Source: an uncultured Paracoccaceae bacterium (GTDB taxonomy: Bacteria > Pseudomonadota > Alphaproteobacteria > Rhodobacterales > Rhodobacteraceae). Taken from it: 64,000 nt of DNA. Positions 7,348-62,892 of this stretch are shown here, piece by piece; position 1 is the first letter of the stretch, and each line of letters begins with the position of its first letter. Below the pieces are notes generated by a model, which was given only the letters and a program-made list of their open reading frames with translations, was not told the DNA's origin and did not search any database. The position numbers were made by a program, and so were the translations under genes. The DNA is taken from positions 1-64,000 of the forward strand of contig CANMPL010000007.1 of the NCBI GenBank assembly GCA_947499715.1, written 5' to 3'.

Positions 7348-8391
7348 ATGACGATCAAAACTCTGCTCGGTGCGGGCAGCCTTATTGCACTGGCGACAGC
7401 CGTTTCTGCACAAGATGCCGACCTTTTGGTGTTCGATTATCCGGGCTTTGAAGATCCGGCCTATCATGCGGGCTATGTTGAAATGCACGGCGACAGCCCG
7501 ACCTTTTCGTTCTTTGGCGACGAAGACGAAGCCTTCCAGAAAATCCGGTCCGGCTTTCAGGCCGACGTCGCACATATCTGTGCGGGCTCTGTCACCAAAT
7601 GGGCGGAAAGCGGGATTCTGGATGAATGGGACGTCAGCAAAATCAGCGCCTATGGCGATGTTGATGCCAACCTGAAAGGCACCGATGTCGGCTCTGACGG
7701 GCCGGTCTACTGGATCCCAACCGATTTCGGATCAACCGCCATTGCCTATAACCCAGAAGAGGTTCCAGCAGAGGATGTCGCATCGCTGAACGTCTTCAAG
7801 GACCCAAAATATGCAGGCCGTTTGACCCTGCCCGACAACGTCGATGACGCCTATGCGCTGGCCTATCTGGCCACCGGTGTTGATGACTGGTCAAACGCCA
7901 CCGATGAACAGTTTGAGGCCGCCAGCAACTGGCTGCGCGAGGTTCACCCCAACCTGCGGACCTATTGGGTTGATCCTGCAGAACTGGCGCAATTGCTGTC
8001 CTCGGGCGAGGTTCTGGTGAGCTGGGCGTGGAACGAAACCTATCCCACCATGCTGGATGAAGGCCGCCCCATCGCGTTCCAACGTGCCGCGACCGAGGGG
8101 TCGTCACTTTGGCTGTGTGGCTATGTGAATTTGGCGGATGGTCAGGGCGTCGAAGACAAGGCCTATGACTATATCAACGCGATGCTGGCCCCCTCTTCGG
8201 TCCTGCCGTTGCTGGATGCCGGATATGGATCTGCCAATGCCGTGGCACTGAACGATCAGGTCGGTCTGGACGATCTGGCCGTCGCAGGGCTGGAGCCTGT
8301 GGACGTGCCGTTGCTGGCGCAAATGCCGATGAGCAATGCCGCGCGAGAGCGTCAGGCAGAGACGTTTGAGCTGATCAAATCCGGCTTCTGA
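7348..8391 (+). CDS. Periplasmic polyamine-type ABC substrate-binding protein (PotD-like), orphan
   Basis: This 347-residue protein begins with a Sec signal peptide (about residues 1-22, cleaved after AVSAQ or nearby) and continues as a bacterial extracellular solute-binding protein of the spermidine/putrescine type, with YWIPTDFGSTAIAYNP, AGRLTLPDN and the VLVSWAWNE region. Such proteins deliver polyamines or related amines to a membrane permease. The start at 7348 follows CGGGAG. No permease or ATPase gene is adjacent, and a strong terminator follows, so it must share a transporter encoded elsewhere or act alone. It lies 73 bp after the GntR gene. Confidence 0.85.
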   Translation: MTIKTLLGAGSLIALATAVSAQDADLLVFDYPGFEDPAYHAGYVEMHGDSPTFSFFGDEDEAFQKIRSGFQADVAHICAGSVTKWAESGILDEWDVSKISAYGDVDANLKGTDVGSDGPVYWIPTDFGSTAIAYNPEEVPAEDVASLNVFKDPKYAGRLTLPDNVDDAYALAYLATGVDDWSNATDEQFEAASNWLREVHPNLRTYWVDPAELAQLLSSGEVLVSWAWNETYPTMLDEGRPIAFQRAATEGSSLWLCGYVNLADGQGVEDKAYDYINAMLAPSSVLPLLDAGYGSANAVALNDQVGLDDLAVAGLEPVDVPLLAQMPMSNAARERQAETFELIKSGF

Positions 8392-8440: not shown

Positions 8441-8451
8441 CGTGCAAACCA

Positions 8452-8506
8452 CCATGCACAAAGTACATGAAAACCATGCACAAACCATACACATACCATG
8501 CGCATG
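8452..8506. repeat. 11-bp tandem repeat array, copy A (five units)
   Basis: Five units of exactly 11 bp start at 8452, 8463, 8474, 8485 and 8496: CCATGCACAAA, a diverged GTACATGAAAA, CCATGCACAAA, CCATACACATA and CCATGCGCATG. On the minus strand the consensus is TTTGTGCATGG. The same 11-bp repeat in the other orientation is found at 60730-60773. The period is close to one helical turn, as expected for co-operative protein binding on one DNA face. The array lies after a terminator and about 100 bp before the next gene. The surrounding gap 8392-8605 holds no other gene; a small inverted repeat (ACGCGC, GTTAA, GCGCGT) lies at 8516-8532. Confidence 0.8.
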
Positions 8507-8605
8507 AAAGTCCTAACGCGCGTTAAGCGCGTACGGTGGTCGGCGCACTGGTCAATCCCAGTCAATCGCCCTACCTGAGGGGCTGAACAGACAAGGATGC
8601 ACCCG

Positions 8606-8950
8606 ATGGACCTTTTGAACTACGTTTTCGCAGCCCTCAGCATCGGGTTGGGTTGTTTTGGCTGGCTGGCCCCCGCCTATACGATGGGCGCGCTGGACCT
8701 GACGCCGGGCCAGAGCAGCATGGGCGCGTCGGAGGTCCGCGCCAGCGTGGGTGCCCTGTTTGTGGGACTGGGTGTTGGGGTCCTGATAATCGGCACACCA
8801 GAGGCTTATGCGATGCTGGGATTTGCATGGGCCGGGGCCGCCATGGGGCGCGGCACATCGCTGATTTTGGACGGGCAAAGCCAAAAGAAATGGATCTATT
8901 TCGGGGTCGAGGCGGCGGTTGCCATTGGCGCGTTGTGGGTCAACCTTTGA
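8606..8950 (+). CDS. Small membrane protein, DUF4345-like
   Basis: This protein of 114 residues is predicted to have about four hydrophobic helices. The SEVRASVGALFVGLGVGVL segment resembles the conserved helix of DUF4345-type proteins. No function is known. The ATG at 8606 is chosen because AAGG lies at a suitable distance upstream; an ATG at 8597 is directly against that AAGG and therefore less likely. It is followed 42 bp later by the acylase gene on the same strand and may share its transcript. Confidence 0.65.
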   Translation: MDLLNYVFAALSIGLGCFGWLAPAYTMGALDLTPGQSSMGASEVRASVGALFVGLGVGVLIIGTPEAYAMLGFAWAGAAMGRGTSLILDGQSQKKWIYFGVEAAVAIGALWVNL

Positions 8951-59214: not shown

Positions 59215-59226
59215 GGGAGAATGACA

Positions 59227-60678
59227 ATGGAAGCCCTTACCTGGACCGGATCGCTCGGCACCATCTTGAACCCAATCCTGTCAATTGCCGTGTTGCTCTT
59301 GGCAATCTCTGTCGTCGTGCAAATTGTGCTCAGCTTCTTTGCACCGGCGATAACCCTGCAATCCAACGCCGATGGCACCCTGATGAAACGGGGCGGCGCA
59401 CTTGGGATGTTTGAACAGGCCACAAAACTGTTCTTCTTTGCCGCCCTCGCCATTGTGGTGGTCTATATCGTCGGCGGGATCATCCTGCCTTACGGTATGC
59501 TTGGCATCGTGGGTGCCATGTCGAAACAGTTTGCGCCGGTCTGGATCGCTCTGTTCCTGACCTTCCTTGCCTCGATCATGTTCAAGCGTCGCTTGGGGCT
59601 TTATGGCAAGCTTTTTGACAGCGTCATCGGCATGATCGGCTTTGGCCTTGTGATGTTCTGGGTCTTCACCGCGATCTTCGCGGGCCTGTTTGACCTGATC
59701 GCAACGCATGATCCTCTGTCGCAAATCTCGGGCCTGAAGAACAAACTCCCCGGCGTGGCCCTGCCCGAAGGATCCGAAGGCAAGGCACCGCACTACCTGC
59801 TGGGCGGCGACAACCTTGCGCGCGATATCTTTAGCCGCATGGTCTATGGATCAACCATCGTGATCGCGATTGCGCCGATGGCCACAATCTTTGCCTTTAT
59901 GGTCGGCATCACGCTGGGCCTGCCTGCGGGTTATTACGGCGGGCGCCTGGACACGATCCTGTCGTTCCTTGCCAACCTGATCTTGGCCTTCCCAGTGATC
60001 CTGCTGTTCTACCTGCTGGTCACACCGGAAATCGTCGCCACCGGGATTCCGTCCTTTATGGCCGCCTTCCTGTTTGTGTTCCCGATCGTGTTCTTCGGCG
60101 TCTTGCTGAACTCGCGATACTACACACAACCGACAAAGCGGACGCCAATGCTGATCTTGGTGCTGGGCGCTTTGGGATGGCTTTACCTCTCGATGATCTC
60201 GCAGACGGGCACGGTGCTGGACTTCCTGCCGCCCGCCGTTGACCTTTTCGATATCGCACCGGGCATTCTGGTGGTCTTCGTCTCGGTGGTCTTCGTGAAC
60301 TCGCCTACGGTGTTCCGCATCGTGCGCGGCCTCGCCCTTGATCTGCGCACACGCGATTATGTCGCCGCCGCCCAGACCCGTGGTGAAGGGGCTTGGTATG
60401 TGATGCTTTGGGAAATCCTGCCCAACGCACGCGGGCCGCTGATCGTCGATTTCTGCCTGCGCATTGGCTACACCACGATCCTTCTGGGAACCTTGGGCTT
60501 CTTTGGCCTTGGCCTGCCGCCCGAAAGCCCTGATTGGGGCTCGACCATCAACGAGGGCCGCAAGCTCCTCTTGGTCTTTGTCCACCCGCCACTGCCGCCT
60601 GCGATTGCACTGTTGTCGCTTGTGTTGGGCTTGAACCTGTTGGCCGACGGCCTGCGTGAAGAAAGCCTGAAAGATTAA
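59227..60678 (+). CDS. Peptide-type ABC permease, DppC-like, with extended N-terminus
   Basis: This 483-residue protein has the DppC core at its C-terminal end, including GGDNLARDIFSRMVYGSTI, the EAA-like loop (RTRDYVAAAQTRGEGAWYVM) and GTLGFFGLGLPPESPDWG. Ordinary DppC proteins are about 280-300 residues; here about 190 extra residues with several added helices precede the core, and there is another insert in the middle (about 290-340). The ATG at 59227 is better spaced from AGGGAG than the one at 59221. Confidence 0.88.
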   Translation: MEALTWTGSLGTILNPILSIAVLLLAISVVVQIVLSFFAPAITLQSNADGTLMKRGGALGMFEQATKLFFFAALAIVVVYIVGGIILPYGMLGIVGAMSKQFAPVWIALFLTFLASIMFKRRLGLYGKLFDSVIGMIGFGLVMFWVFTAIFAGLFDLIATHDPLSQISGLKNKLPGVALPEGSEGKAPHYLLGGDNLARDIFSRMVYGSTIVIAIAPMATIFAFMVGITLGLPAGYYGGRLDTILSFLANLILAFPVILLFYLLVTPEIVATGIPSFMAAFLFVFPIVFFGVLLNSRYYTQPTKRTPMLILVLGALGWLYLSMISQTGTVLDFLPPAVDLFDIAPGILVVFVSVVFVNSPTVFRIVRGLALDLRTRDYVAAAQTRGEGAWYVMLWEILPNARGPLIVDFCLRIGYTTILLGTLGFFGLGLPPESPDWGSTINEGRKLLLVFVHPPLPPAIALLSLVLGLNLLADGLREESLKD

Positions 60679-60683
60679 CCCAT

Positions 60684-60708
60684 CGCGCGGCAAAATGGTT
60701 GCCGCGCG
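60684..60708. terminator. Hairpin between permease and ATPase genes
   Basis: CGCGCGGCAA (60684-60693) and TTGCCGCGCG (60699-60708) pair perfectly. Only TT follows, so it is more likely an mRNA-stabilising or weakly attenuating hairpin than a full terminator. Confidence 0.5.
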
Positions 60709-60729
60709 TTAAGGAACACATACGCCCAC

Positions 60730-60773
60730 TTTGTGCATGGTTTGTGCATAGGATGTGTATGGGTTGTGCATCA
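60730..60773. repeat. 11-bp tandem repeat array, copy B (four units)
   Basis: TTTGTGCATGG, TTTGTGCATAG, GATGTGTATGG and GTTGTGCATCA start at 60730, 60741, 60752 and 60763, exactly 11 bp apart. The reverse complement of the first unit equals units 1 and 3 of the array at 8452-8506. It lies in the 123-bp gap before the ATPase gene, ending 28 bp before its start codon, which suits a regulatory role. Confidence 0.8.
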
Positions 60774-60801
60774 TAGATTTCGACCGTTCGGAGGACCCGA
60801 A

Positions 60802-62892
60802 ATGACAACAGAAAATAAATACGATGGCCCGATCCTGGAGATCGACAAACTGTCGATTTCCTTCTTTACCCGGCTGCGCGAAATCCCCGCCGTGATGGAC
60901 TTTTCCGCCAAGATCATGCCGGGCGAAGCCCTTGGTGTTGTTGGTGAATCCGGCTGCGGCAAGTCGACTGTGGCCTTGGGCGTCATGCAGGATCTGGGCG
61001 TGAACGGCCGCATCGTTGGCGGCTCGATCAAATTCAAGGGCGAAGAGATGAACACGATGACGCCAGAGCGTCTGCGTGACATCCGTGGCAGCCAAATTGC
61101 CATGATTTATCAAGAGCCTATGGCATCTCTCAACCCCGCCATGCGGATCGGAAAACAGCTCGCAGAAGTGCCGATGATCCACGAAGGCATCTCTGAATCA
61201 GAGGCGATGAAGCGCGCATTGGAAGTCGTCACAGACGTCAAACTCCCCGACCCTGCCCGGATTTTGAAATCCTTCCCGCACCAGCTTTCAGGCGGTCAAC
61301 AACAGCGCATCGTGATCGCTATGGCCTTGATGTCAAAGCCTTCTTTGCTGATCTTGGATGAACCCACCACCGCACTTGATGTGACGGTCGAGGCCGCCGT
61401 CGTCGAACTGGTCAAGGATCTGGGCAAGAAATACGGCACCTCGATGCTGTTTATCAGCCACAACCTTGGTCTGGTGCTCGAAACCTGCGACCGGATCTGC
61501 GTGATGTATTCCGGCGAAGCGGTTGAACGCGGGTCCATCGACGATGTCTTCGACGAGATGCAACACCCTTATACACAAGCACTTTTCCGCTCTATTCCGT
61601 TGCCGGGCGCCGACAAAAACGCACGCCCCCTGATCGCCATTCCGGGCAATTTCCCCCTGCCGCATGAACGCCCCGAAGGCTGCAACTTTGGCCCGCGCTG
61701 CGATTACTTCGAAGAGGGCCGCTGCGACAGTCAAGTGATTACGATGGAGAAGGTCTCGGGCAATGACCGCCACGAATCCCGGTGTTTGAAATTCAAGGAA
61801 ATCGACTGGGACGCCCCGCCGCAAGTCGCTGAAACAAAAGAAAAAGCACCCCCCGGACAGGTTGTCCTCAAGATGGACAACCTCAAGAAGTATTATGAGG
61901 TCGCGGCCAACGCCCTCTTTGGCAGCGGCGGCGAACGGAAGGTCGTCAAAGCCAATGAAACCCTATCGTTCGAGGCCCGCGAAAGCGAAACCCTTGCAAT
62001 CGTTGGTGAATCGGGCTGCGGCAAATCCACTTTCGCCAAAGTGCTGATGGGGCTTGAAACCGCAACAGAGGGCGAGATCCTTTTGGACAACAAGTCCATC
62101 GGCAATATCCCAATTGAACAACGCGACACAAAAACCATCGCAGACGTGCAAATGGTGTTCCAGAACCCCTTTGACACGCTGAATCCTTCAATGACCGTCG
62201 GGCGCCAAATCATGCGCGCGCTCGAGATTTTCAAGGTCGGCAACAACGACGCCGAACGCCGCACCCGCATGCTGGAACTGCTGGATCTGGTGAAACTGCC
62301 GCGTGCCTTTGCCGACCGGATGCCGCGTCAGCTTTCGGGTGGTCAGAAGCAACGCGTTGGTATTGCACGCGCTTTTGCCGGTGACGCCCGCATCGTTGTC
62401 GCTGATGAGCCGGTCTCGGCGCTGGACGTCTCTGTGCAGGCGGCTGTGACGGATCTGCTGATGGAAATTCAACGTGAACACAAAACCACGCTGCTCTTTA
62501 TCAGCCACGACCTGTCCATCGTTCGCTACCTGTCTGACCGCGTTATGGTCATGTATCTGGGCCATGTGGTCGAGCTTGGCACCACCGATCAGGTCTTCGC
62601 CCCGCCCTATCACCCCTACACAGAGGCGCTCTTGTCCGCCGTGCCCATCGCCGACACCAGCGTCAAGAAAAAGCATATCGTGCTTGAAGGCGACATCCCA
62701 TCAGCGATGAACCCGCCCACCGGCTGCCCATTCCAAACCCGCTGTCGCTGGAAGGACAAGGTCGCAGGTGGCCTTTGCGAAAAAGAGGTGCCCGTCACCC
62801 GCACATTGGCCGAGGGGCATCAGGTCAAATGCCATCTGACCGACGAACAGATGACTGAAATGGAACCGGTGATCGAGGTGGCGGCAGAATAA
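60802..62892 (+). CDS. Fused two-domain peptide-type ABC ATPase (DppD-DppF)
   Basis: This 696-residue protein holds two complete ATPase domains: Walker A GESGCGKST at 48-56 and again at about 401-409, LSGGQQQR and LSGGQKQR signatures, and two oligopeptide-type C-terminal extensions with Cys clusters (GCNFGPRCDYFEEGRC and GCPFQTRCRW). It powers the importer whose permeases lie upstream. The start at 60802 follows GGAGG; the open frame further up runs through the tandem repeat and is unlikely to be coding. Confidence 0.93.
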   Translation: MTTENKYDGPILEIDKLSISFFTRLREIPAVMDFSAKIMPGEALGVVGESGCGKSTVALGVMQDLGVNGRIVGGSIKFKGEEMNTMTPERLRDIRGSQIAMIYQEPMASLNPAMRIGKQLAEVPMIHEGISESEAMKRALEVVTDVKLPDPARILKSFPHQLSGGQQQRIVIAMALMSKPSLLILDEPTTALDVTVEAAVVELVKDLGKKYGTSMLFISHNLGLVLETCDRICVMYSGEAVERGSIDDVFDEMQHPYTQALFRSIPLPGADKNARPLIAIPGNFPLPHERPEGCNFGPRCDYFEEGRCDSQVITMEKVSGNDRHESRCLKFKEIDWDAPPQVAETKEKAPPGQVVLKMDNLKKYYEVAANALFGSGGERKVVKANETLSFEARESETLAIVGESGCGKSTFAKVLMGLETATEGEILLDNKSIGNIPIEQRDTKTIADVQMVFQNPFDTLNPSMTVGRQIMRALEIFKVGNNDAERRTRMLELLDLVKLPRAFADRMPRQLSGGQKQRVGIARAFAGDARIVVADEPVSALDVSVQAAVTDLLMEIQREHKTTLLFISHDLSIVRYLSDRVMVMYLGHVVELGTTDQVFAPPYHPYTEALLSAVPIADTSVKKKHIVLEGDIPSAMNPPTGCPFQTRCRWKDKVAGGLCEKEVPVTRTLAEGHQVKCHLTDEQMTEMEPVIEVAAE

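Follow-up and report, generated by a model that had tools for sequence, protein, structure and literature searches.

Two tandem arrays of an 11-bp unit lie in the window, by which we mean the whole 64-kb stretch of DNA analysed here, and they raise the question of what such a phased repeat does on a bacterial chromosome. The initial annotation had placed the two arrays on opposite strands and had assigned them an exact 11-bp period. Both statements were confirmed, and the fourth unit of the five-unit array proved to be degenerate. A literature search at title level returned no paper on these arrays and no relevant work on skew tied to repeats.

Results

Two oppositely oriented arrays in the window

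The five-unit array (positions 8450–8504, minus strand) reads TGTGCATG, and its minus-strand units are TGCGCATGGTA, TGTGTATGGTT, TGTGCATGGTT, TTCATGTACTT, and TGTGCATGGTG. The degenerate unit is also present in other arrays of the same genome, designated G000. The array lies between the genes for an extracellular solute-binding protein (SBP_bac_6; 7348–8391, plus strand) and a DUF4345 protein (8606–8950, plus strand). Its unit 1 is adjoined by the 5′ flank motif TTAACGCGCGTTAGGACTTTCA (8505–8526, minus strand), which was defined at the genus level from a 62-row alignment and a three-species consensus. The second array (60732–60775, plus strand) consists of four units and ends 26 bp ahead of the start codon of a fused oligopeptide-type ABC ATPase gene (60802–62892, plus strand). 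Because it is located between this gene and that of an ABC permease (BPD_transp_1; 59221–60678, plus strand), the array resides inside a transporter operon. A diverged copy of the 5′ flank motif, GCGCGTTAAGGAACACA (60699–60720, plus strand), was assigned by eye against the consensus.

With up to three mismatches allowed, the three-unit pattern TGTGYATGNNN ×3 was matched three times in the window and never in 100 shuffles. Single 11-mers gave 19 matches at up to two mismatches, with 29.8 expected. Thus, single units are not enriched, and only the tandem arrangement is meaningful.

Distribution and anatomy of the arrays

The three-unit pattern matches the window's genome (4.02 Mb) at 115 places, and its reversed control nowhere. 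At least 61–62 separate arrays were collected from it, and the array lists for G000, G371, and G253 are lower bounds. A match was present in 40 of 394 genomes of the family, which represent about one per genus, and the reversed control yielded four matches in total over the same 394 genomes (in G266, G277, and G282, by our own table count). More than 20 matches were found in eleven genomes (G000, G004, G053, G084, G105, G167, G253, G282, G319, G321, and G371); array-rich genomes are therefore a minority of the family. Within the window's genus, arrays occur in G001, G002, G004, and G005, and G003 has only one or two matches. The two-unit pattern had no match in 16 genomes from other families of the class. 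This search of the genome and its relatives, which the initial annotation had proposed, revealed neither hundreds of randomly placed copies nor a unique, unconserved pair.

An exact scan of a wider contig collection returned 56 stretches. Judged by title, 29 of them come from genera that we take to be members of the Rhodobacteraceae and 16 from Prevotella or Prevotellaceae; 11 were other repeats, as assessed by eye. Fifteen of the 16 carry one different element, and the Prevotella matches were rejected as instances of the same array. The Prevotella element combines conserved flanks with a variable number of 11-bp TGTGTATGGYA units and is dispersed in the genomes (loci L082, L087, L092, L096–L098, L105, L110, L111, L113, L118, L121, L122, L129, and L130). 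Eight stretches from viral contigs, checked by eye, held only simple or unrelated repeats.

The common unit is TGTGYATGNNN, usually present as four tandem copies one helical turn apart. The first unit is often a variant (TATGCAT or TGCGCAT), and the last one is often followed by a short GC step and a T-run. In the window's genus, the motif TTAACGCGnCTTARGACTTTS stands ahead of the array. The array motif drifts between genomes (TGTGCATG, TGTGTATG, TGTGCACG, and TGTGCATC), and both flanks and units are species-specific. A partial terminal inverted repeat was seen in the G000 copies; a terminal repeat or palindrome common to all copies was not encountered. Rfam searches at 12 loci placed only a tRNA above the gathering score and no family above it at an array; one chance-level match overlaps an array (EBv-sisRNA-1, E 0.36). 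With no Rfam family above its gathering score at the arrays of these 12 loci and no constant orientation to transcription in G000 (19 versus 15, P 0.61, see below), a structured RNA element is not supported.

Conservation of array positions

A G005 array was found at the same place for 37 of the 61 G000 arrays (corresponding to 36 of the 50 collected G005 arrays), and a G002 array for 27 of the 61 (26 of the 34 G002 arrays). Some positions are common even to different genera while the core stays at consensus. Core identity between G000 and G005 was 0.76 for orthologous and 0.76 for unrelated arrays. Compared with random pairs, orthologous cores reached 0.79 versus 0.75 for G000–G002 and 0.74 versus 0.73 for G005–G002. 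A trace of orthology was retained between G000 and G005 in the spacers (0.52 versus 0.43 for random pairs) and in the flanks (0.41–0.43 versus 0.27–0.32). We infer that the cores turn over within a maintained consensus, which would reflect selection more probably than homogenisation between copies.

The exact one-turn period, the core at consensus, and the more variable spacers also bear on the earlier proposal that a protein binds side by side on one face of the DNA. The geometry fits that proposal, and from it we infer that a protein probably binds.

Remnants of a mobile element (MITE or REP-like) that inserted with strand bias, or copies homogenised among themselves, would likewise be multi-copy, intergenic, and strand-biased, with species-specific flanks and units, and the partial terminal inverted repeat of G000 would suit them. 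The many positions common to species, and some to genera, while the core stays at consensus are, however, not what such remnants would leave, and the flank repeats were not seen in other genera when these were inspected by eye. We regard this origin as very unlikely.

Gene context

In G000, 56 of 62 arrays lie outside the genes called with our own script, an overlap of up to 15 bp being allowed. The 62 contexts comprise 19 of type >>, 15 of type <<, 14 convergent, 5 divergent, and 9 other sites. Accordingly, G000 shows no orientation of the arrays to transcription (19 >> versus 15 <<, P 0.61), and divergent sites are fewer than convergent ones (P 0.064). Many arrays lie inside operons, between co-transcribed genes. 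Neighbours named by protein models include MalF–MalG, the glutamate synthase small subunit, and acyl-CoA carboxylase-type subunits. A BchY–BchZ pair flanks one array, with a partial BchZ match below cut-off, and the best models for LivG-like and LivH-like neighbours were also below their cut-offs. Together with further neighbours named by eye, these genes are mixed and form no coherent regulon. A special link to importers, as suggested in the initial annotation, was not borne out, since the neighbours are of many kinds, with several ABC operons among them, and G000 shows no promoter preference.

These data also bear on the possibility that the arrays are operators of an OmpR/PhoB-like regulator that recognises 11-bp direct repeats. 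The period equals that of SARP/OmpR-type sites, as described in PMC10936776, and some arrays end about 30 bp ahead of a start codon. Against such a role, only 5 of the 62 G000 sites are divergent and 14 are convergent, the rest being mostly codirectional in either array direction; the neighbours are mixed, and the long skew zones described below would be left unexplained. An operator function is thus most improbable. Mobile remnants and importer operators alike fit the data poorly.

One junction was surveyed across genera. Thirty genomes were searched for livG, eight of which had no scorable junction, and three loci were added from elsewhere. Scored by eye, an array follows the livG stop codon in 11 of 25 genomes; these 11 come from seven genera, and Vannielia is an eighth. 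It was not seen in the other 14, which include G003 and the array-rich G084 and G319; the long gaps of G006 and G084 were scored without their middle. As two array-rich genomes show no array at livG, individual sites seem to be gained or lost. In livG–livH junctions without an array, the slot holds AAAATTC/GAATTTT palindromes in L373 (G014) and L382 (G010), and other hairpin-like sequence, by eye, in G015 and G020. The slot seems to attract lineage-specific intergenic elements.

Strand asymmetry around the arrays

The unexpected result, which the initial annotation had not foreseen, is the polarity of the arrays relative to zones of strand asymmetry. In the window, the patch 5′ of the minus-strand array (8001–32000) has a plus-strand GC skew close to zero or above it, ranging from −0.025 to 0.071 per 2 kb, compared with −0.07 to −0.15 in 1–8 kb and −0.05 to −0.13 in 42–54 kb. 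A switch in gene direction near 6.5 kb contributes in the first 5 kb. Over six genomes, the TGTGCATG strand is locally C-rich (GC skew below zero when read in array orientation) for 177 of the 197 arrays; G000, G005, and G002 belong to one genus and share positions, so their arrays are not independent in this count. With the element itself left out, the ±1.5-kb flanks were negative for 50/61 arrays in G000, 46/50 in G005, 30/34 in G002, 15/15 in G371, 14/14 in G253, and 22/23 in G321, the sample covering 15 of the 26 G371 arrays, 23 of the 56 G321 arrays, and 14 arrays of G253.

In G005, the array agrees with the local skew in 34 of 36 cases, and 12 of the 14 arrays that run against the replichore still do so. 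Profiles to ±10 kb revealed a third-position skew of about −0.2 just 5′ of the G005 array, where the effect is largest. The effect extended over 10 kb or more on this side, being still about −0.11 at 9 kb, and 3′ of the array it was gone beyond about 2.5 kb. In G321, which belongs to another genus, third-position skew 3′ of the array stays negative (−0.17 to −0.12), so the evidence for a short 3′ tail comes from G005. The skew step was negative at 16 of 20 G005 arrays, including 9 of 10 in the discordant half of that set, and at 17 of 20 G321 arrays (Wilcoxon P 0.0027 for either genome, computed at array positions only). These 20-kb windows covered 20 of the 37 listed C1 arrays of G005 (10/14 discordant and 10/23 concordant) and 20 of the 56 G321 arrays, for which isolated ones were chosen. 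AT skew showed a weak 5′ shift with the sign expected of C-to-T changes on the CATGCACA strand, and third-position AT skew showed no clear pattern around the arrays. Gene direction was rejected as the cause, since the array effect persists in third-position skew sorted by gene strand.

A regression model with a polar, decaying array effect was fitted to windows sampled from the genomes. Many of these were centred on arrays, namely half of the stretches in G005 and 15 of 35 in G371. In these windows, the array model alone reached an R2 of 0.40–0.42 in G005, versus 0.24 for the replichore alone, and 0.58–0.59 versus 0.39 in G371; for G321, where all windows were array-centred, R2 was 0.65–0.70. 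Strand permutations attained the observed fit in 0 of 300 cases in G005 and G371, and in 0 of 200 in each of G005, G371, and G321. When the effect was placed on the wrong side and the replichore term was included, R2 amounted to 0.29–0.33 in G005 and 0.46–0.47 in G371, which is below the right side and above the replichore alone. The best-fitting decay lengths were 50–200 kb, of the order of the array spacing. In G005 and G371, a step within 50–100 kb did almost as well as a decay. A ramp that ends at the array fitted worse than a decay away from it in all three genomes.

Other polar guiding oligomers were considered in a scan of 6- to 8-mers. Among the best nine words per length, the strongest 7-mer in both genomes was ATGCACA, an array word, and the other words had only modest excesses. 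Such oligomers were rejected on this basis.

Array spacing and orientation to replication

Gaps between arrays are more even than uniform random positions, which served as the null in place of intergenic ones, in G371 (26 arrays, coefficient of variation 0.52, P 0.0001), G321 (56 arrays, P 0.031, located with a pattern that does not match units carrying C at position 8), and G005 C1 (37 arrays, P 0.026); combined over the three, P was 1.2e-5. Among the gaps listed, the one spanning the terminus ranks first in size in G005 C1 (1292–1588 kb) and second in G371 C1 (1654–1876 kb), a hint of array depletion at the terminus.

In G371, 22 of 26 arrays follow the replichore, with CATGCACA reading from ori to ter (P 0.0005). 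In G005, 22 of 36 arrays agree with the direction of replication (P 0.24). The GGGNAGGG words of G005 agree with the replichores in 122 cases against 9, and are divided 84 to 47 with respect to the arrays. Inversions carrying the arrays are disfavoured as the cause of the zones, because these words mostly keep replichore polarity in the reversed patches and because the skew steps at the array.

The same observations bear on a Chi-like signal, at which an enzyme that processes DNA ends would halt after approaching from 5′ of TGTGCATG, leave a 1- to 2-kb tail, and be followed by error-prone re-synthesis of the lost DNA from that point. The polarity in G371 has what we take to be the same sense as E. 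coli Chi, the short far-side effect in G005 would match the tail, and the fitted decay lengths are of the order of the array spacing. In each of the three genomes, however, a plain termination ramp fitted less well than a decay away from the array, and the polarity in G005 is not significant (22/36). Moreover, known Chi sequences are, as we understand them, single short words that give no reason for an 11-bp phase, and about 26–60 collected sites per genome are few. We consider a Chi-like stop rather unlikely.

An array-poor member of the genus

G003, with almost no arrays, has a weak, replichore-like skew. Its residual skew SD was 0.032, compared with 0.057 for evenly sampled G005 (F 3.16, P 9e-6) and 0.063 for G371. 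With the replichore boundary set by eye at 1.06 Mb, its replichore coefficient was 0.026, close to the array-corrected value of G005 (0.028–0.031 at the best decay lengths). In five orthologous stretches, G003 was nearer its own replichore value in three (L405/L486, L408/L485, and L409/L474) and G005-like in two.

The near-equality of the replichore coefficient with arrays (after correction) and without them speaks against auxiliary replication origins, in which DnaA-box-like units would fire unidirectional forks. The reverse complement of the unit, CCATRCACA, resembles the DnaA box, the consensus of which we take to be TTATNCACA. The units share one orientation and are 9-mers spaced by 2 bp, often with a GC-rich step and a T-run after the last one, and the sign of the skew is the one expected of a fork that departs towards the 5′ side. 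The units nevertheless have other bases, mostly CC or GA, where the box has TT, and of 37 genomes, with or without arrays, 35 have one copy of the DnaA domain PF08299. Such origins are distinctly unlikely. A second DnaA C-terminal domain was observed in two of the 37 genomes (G319:C11:15791–15994 and G019:C37:31320–31520), one of which is array-rich.

Gene transfer agent genes and arrays

A gene transfer agent (GTA) or conjugation-like system that begins at the arrays and moves DNA one way would produce a one-way gradient of tens of kb, and GTA_TIM was detected in 29 of 32 genomes tested. For D. shibae, discrete packaging peaks of unresolved cause are reported in the review PMC11841831. GTA_TIM is, however, also present in G003 and in 11 of 12 genomes selected as array-poor, and it is absent from G363 and G394, which do have a few arrays. 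The putative TerS upstream of TerL, picked by an ORF rule at 22 loci, looks alike in array-bearing and array-poor groups. Pfam searches with 6 of the 22 proteins gave nothing above cut-off, the G005 protein having a sub-threshold match to MerR-DNA-bind (E 0.013), and no consistent array lies beside the GTA cluster in five genomes compared by position. A packaging or transfer start is therefore unlikely. The putative TerS sequences (22 loci among L491–L514) are very variable and always short. The search for a cognate protein, which covered an extra DnaA domain in 37 genomes and the GTA TerS at 22 loci, found none.

Discussion

The reading that we favour, with roughly even confidence, is that the arrays are polar, chromosome-wide sites of a putative DNA-binding protein and mark the starts of a one-directional DNA transaction. 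The protein would occupy some four units, each a helical turn from the next. The transaction would leave the array on the 5′ side of TGTGCATG, which is 3′-ward along the CATGCACA strand, and cover tens of kb or more, with a tail of 1–2 kb on the other side. The CATGCACA strand, left exposed, would lose C and become G-rich. Most likely, the transaction would be replication restart or recombination-dependent synthesis from at or near the array. A one-way, site-anchored process that exposes one strand would explain the sign, the edge, and the gradient of the zones, their additivity to replication, and their loss. It is a more tentative proposition, and one we would sooner doubt than affirm, that tens of dedicated, protein-read polar start sites for one-directional synthesis or strand transfer outweigh origin and terminus in their effect on composition. 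Composition could also have shaped array placement rather than the reverse. The main weaknesses of the case are that G003 represents one loss event, that the direction of causation may be the opposite one, and that the search described above found no reader protein.

Origins and termini are commonly located from GC skew. In the sampled windows, the site-anchored strand asymmetry is stronger than the asymmetry that follows the direction of replication. The DNA signal to which it is tied is simple and open to deletion, relocation, or inversion, which makes a possible hidden chromosome-wide transaction directly testable in marine bacteria that are harmless.

Several known systems resemble the arrays in part. 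REP/BIME elements are likewise dispersed in intergenic copies at 3′ ends and within operons, but no shared palindromic stem was seen in the arrays, which have shared positions and zones of strand asymmetry instead. DnaA-box clusters, according to the consensus given above, are likewise directly repeated 9-mers resembling the box; the arrays differ in that they do not have the TT and occur beyond an origin, and 35 of the 37 genomes lack an additional DnaA domain. KOPS and Chi are polar chromosomal signals consisting of a single octamer, and they, too, are dispersed, oriented, and act at a distance in one direction. The arrays, in contrast, are about 44 bp long rather than one octamer, number tens per genome, and are oriented in accordance with local skew patches. 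A KOPS-like orientation is not seen in G005 (22/36 with the replichores, versus 122 to 9 for the GGGNAGGG words), whereas the G371 arrays do follow the replichores (22/26). SARP/OmpR-type operators, as PMC10936776 describes them, are promoter elements made of the same kind of 11-bp direct repeats one turn apart; the arrays show no promoter preference in G000. The stbDR sites of the stbDR/StbA system of plasmid R388 consist, according to PMC3098194, of directly repeated 9-bp units (TTGCATCAT) with 2 bp between them. This unit is close to the TGTGCATCA of some genera. In R388, two groups of five such repeats lie at a promoter beside oriT (PMC3098194), whereas the arrays analysed here are single and chromosome-wide. 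Bounded at one edge by arrays, the long, one-sided zones of strand asymmetry suggest a hitherto undescribed one-way DNA process linked to the arrays.
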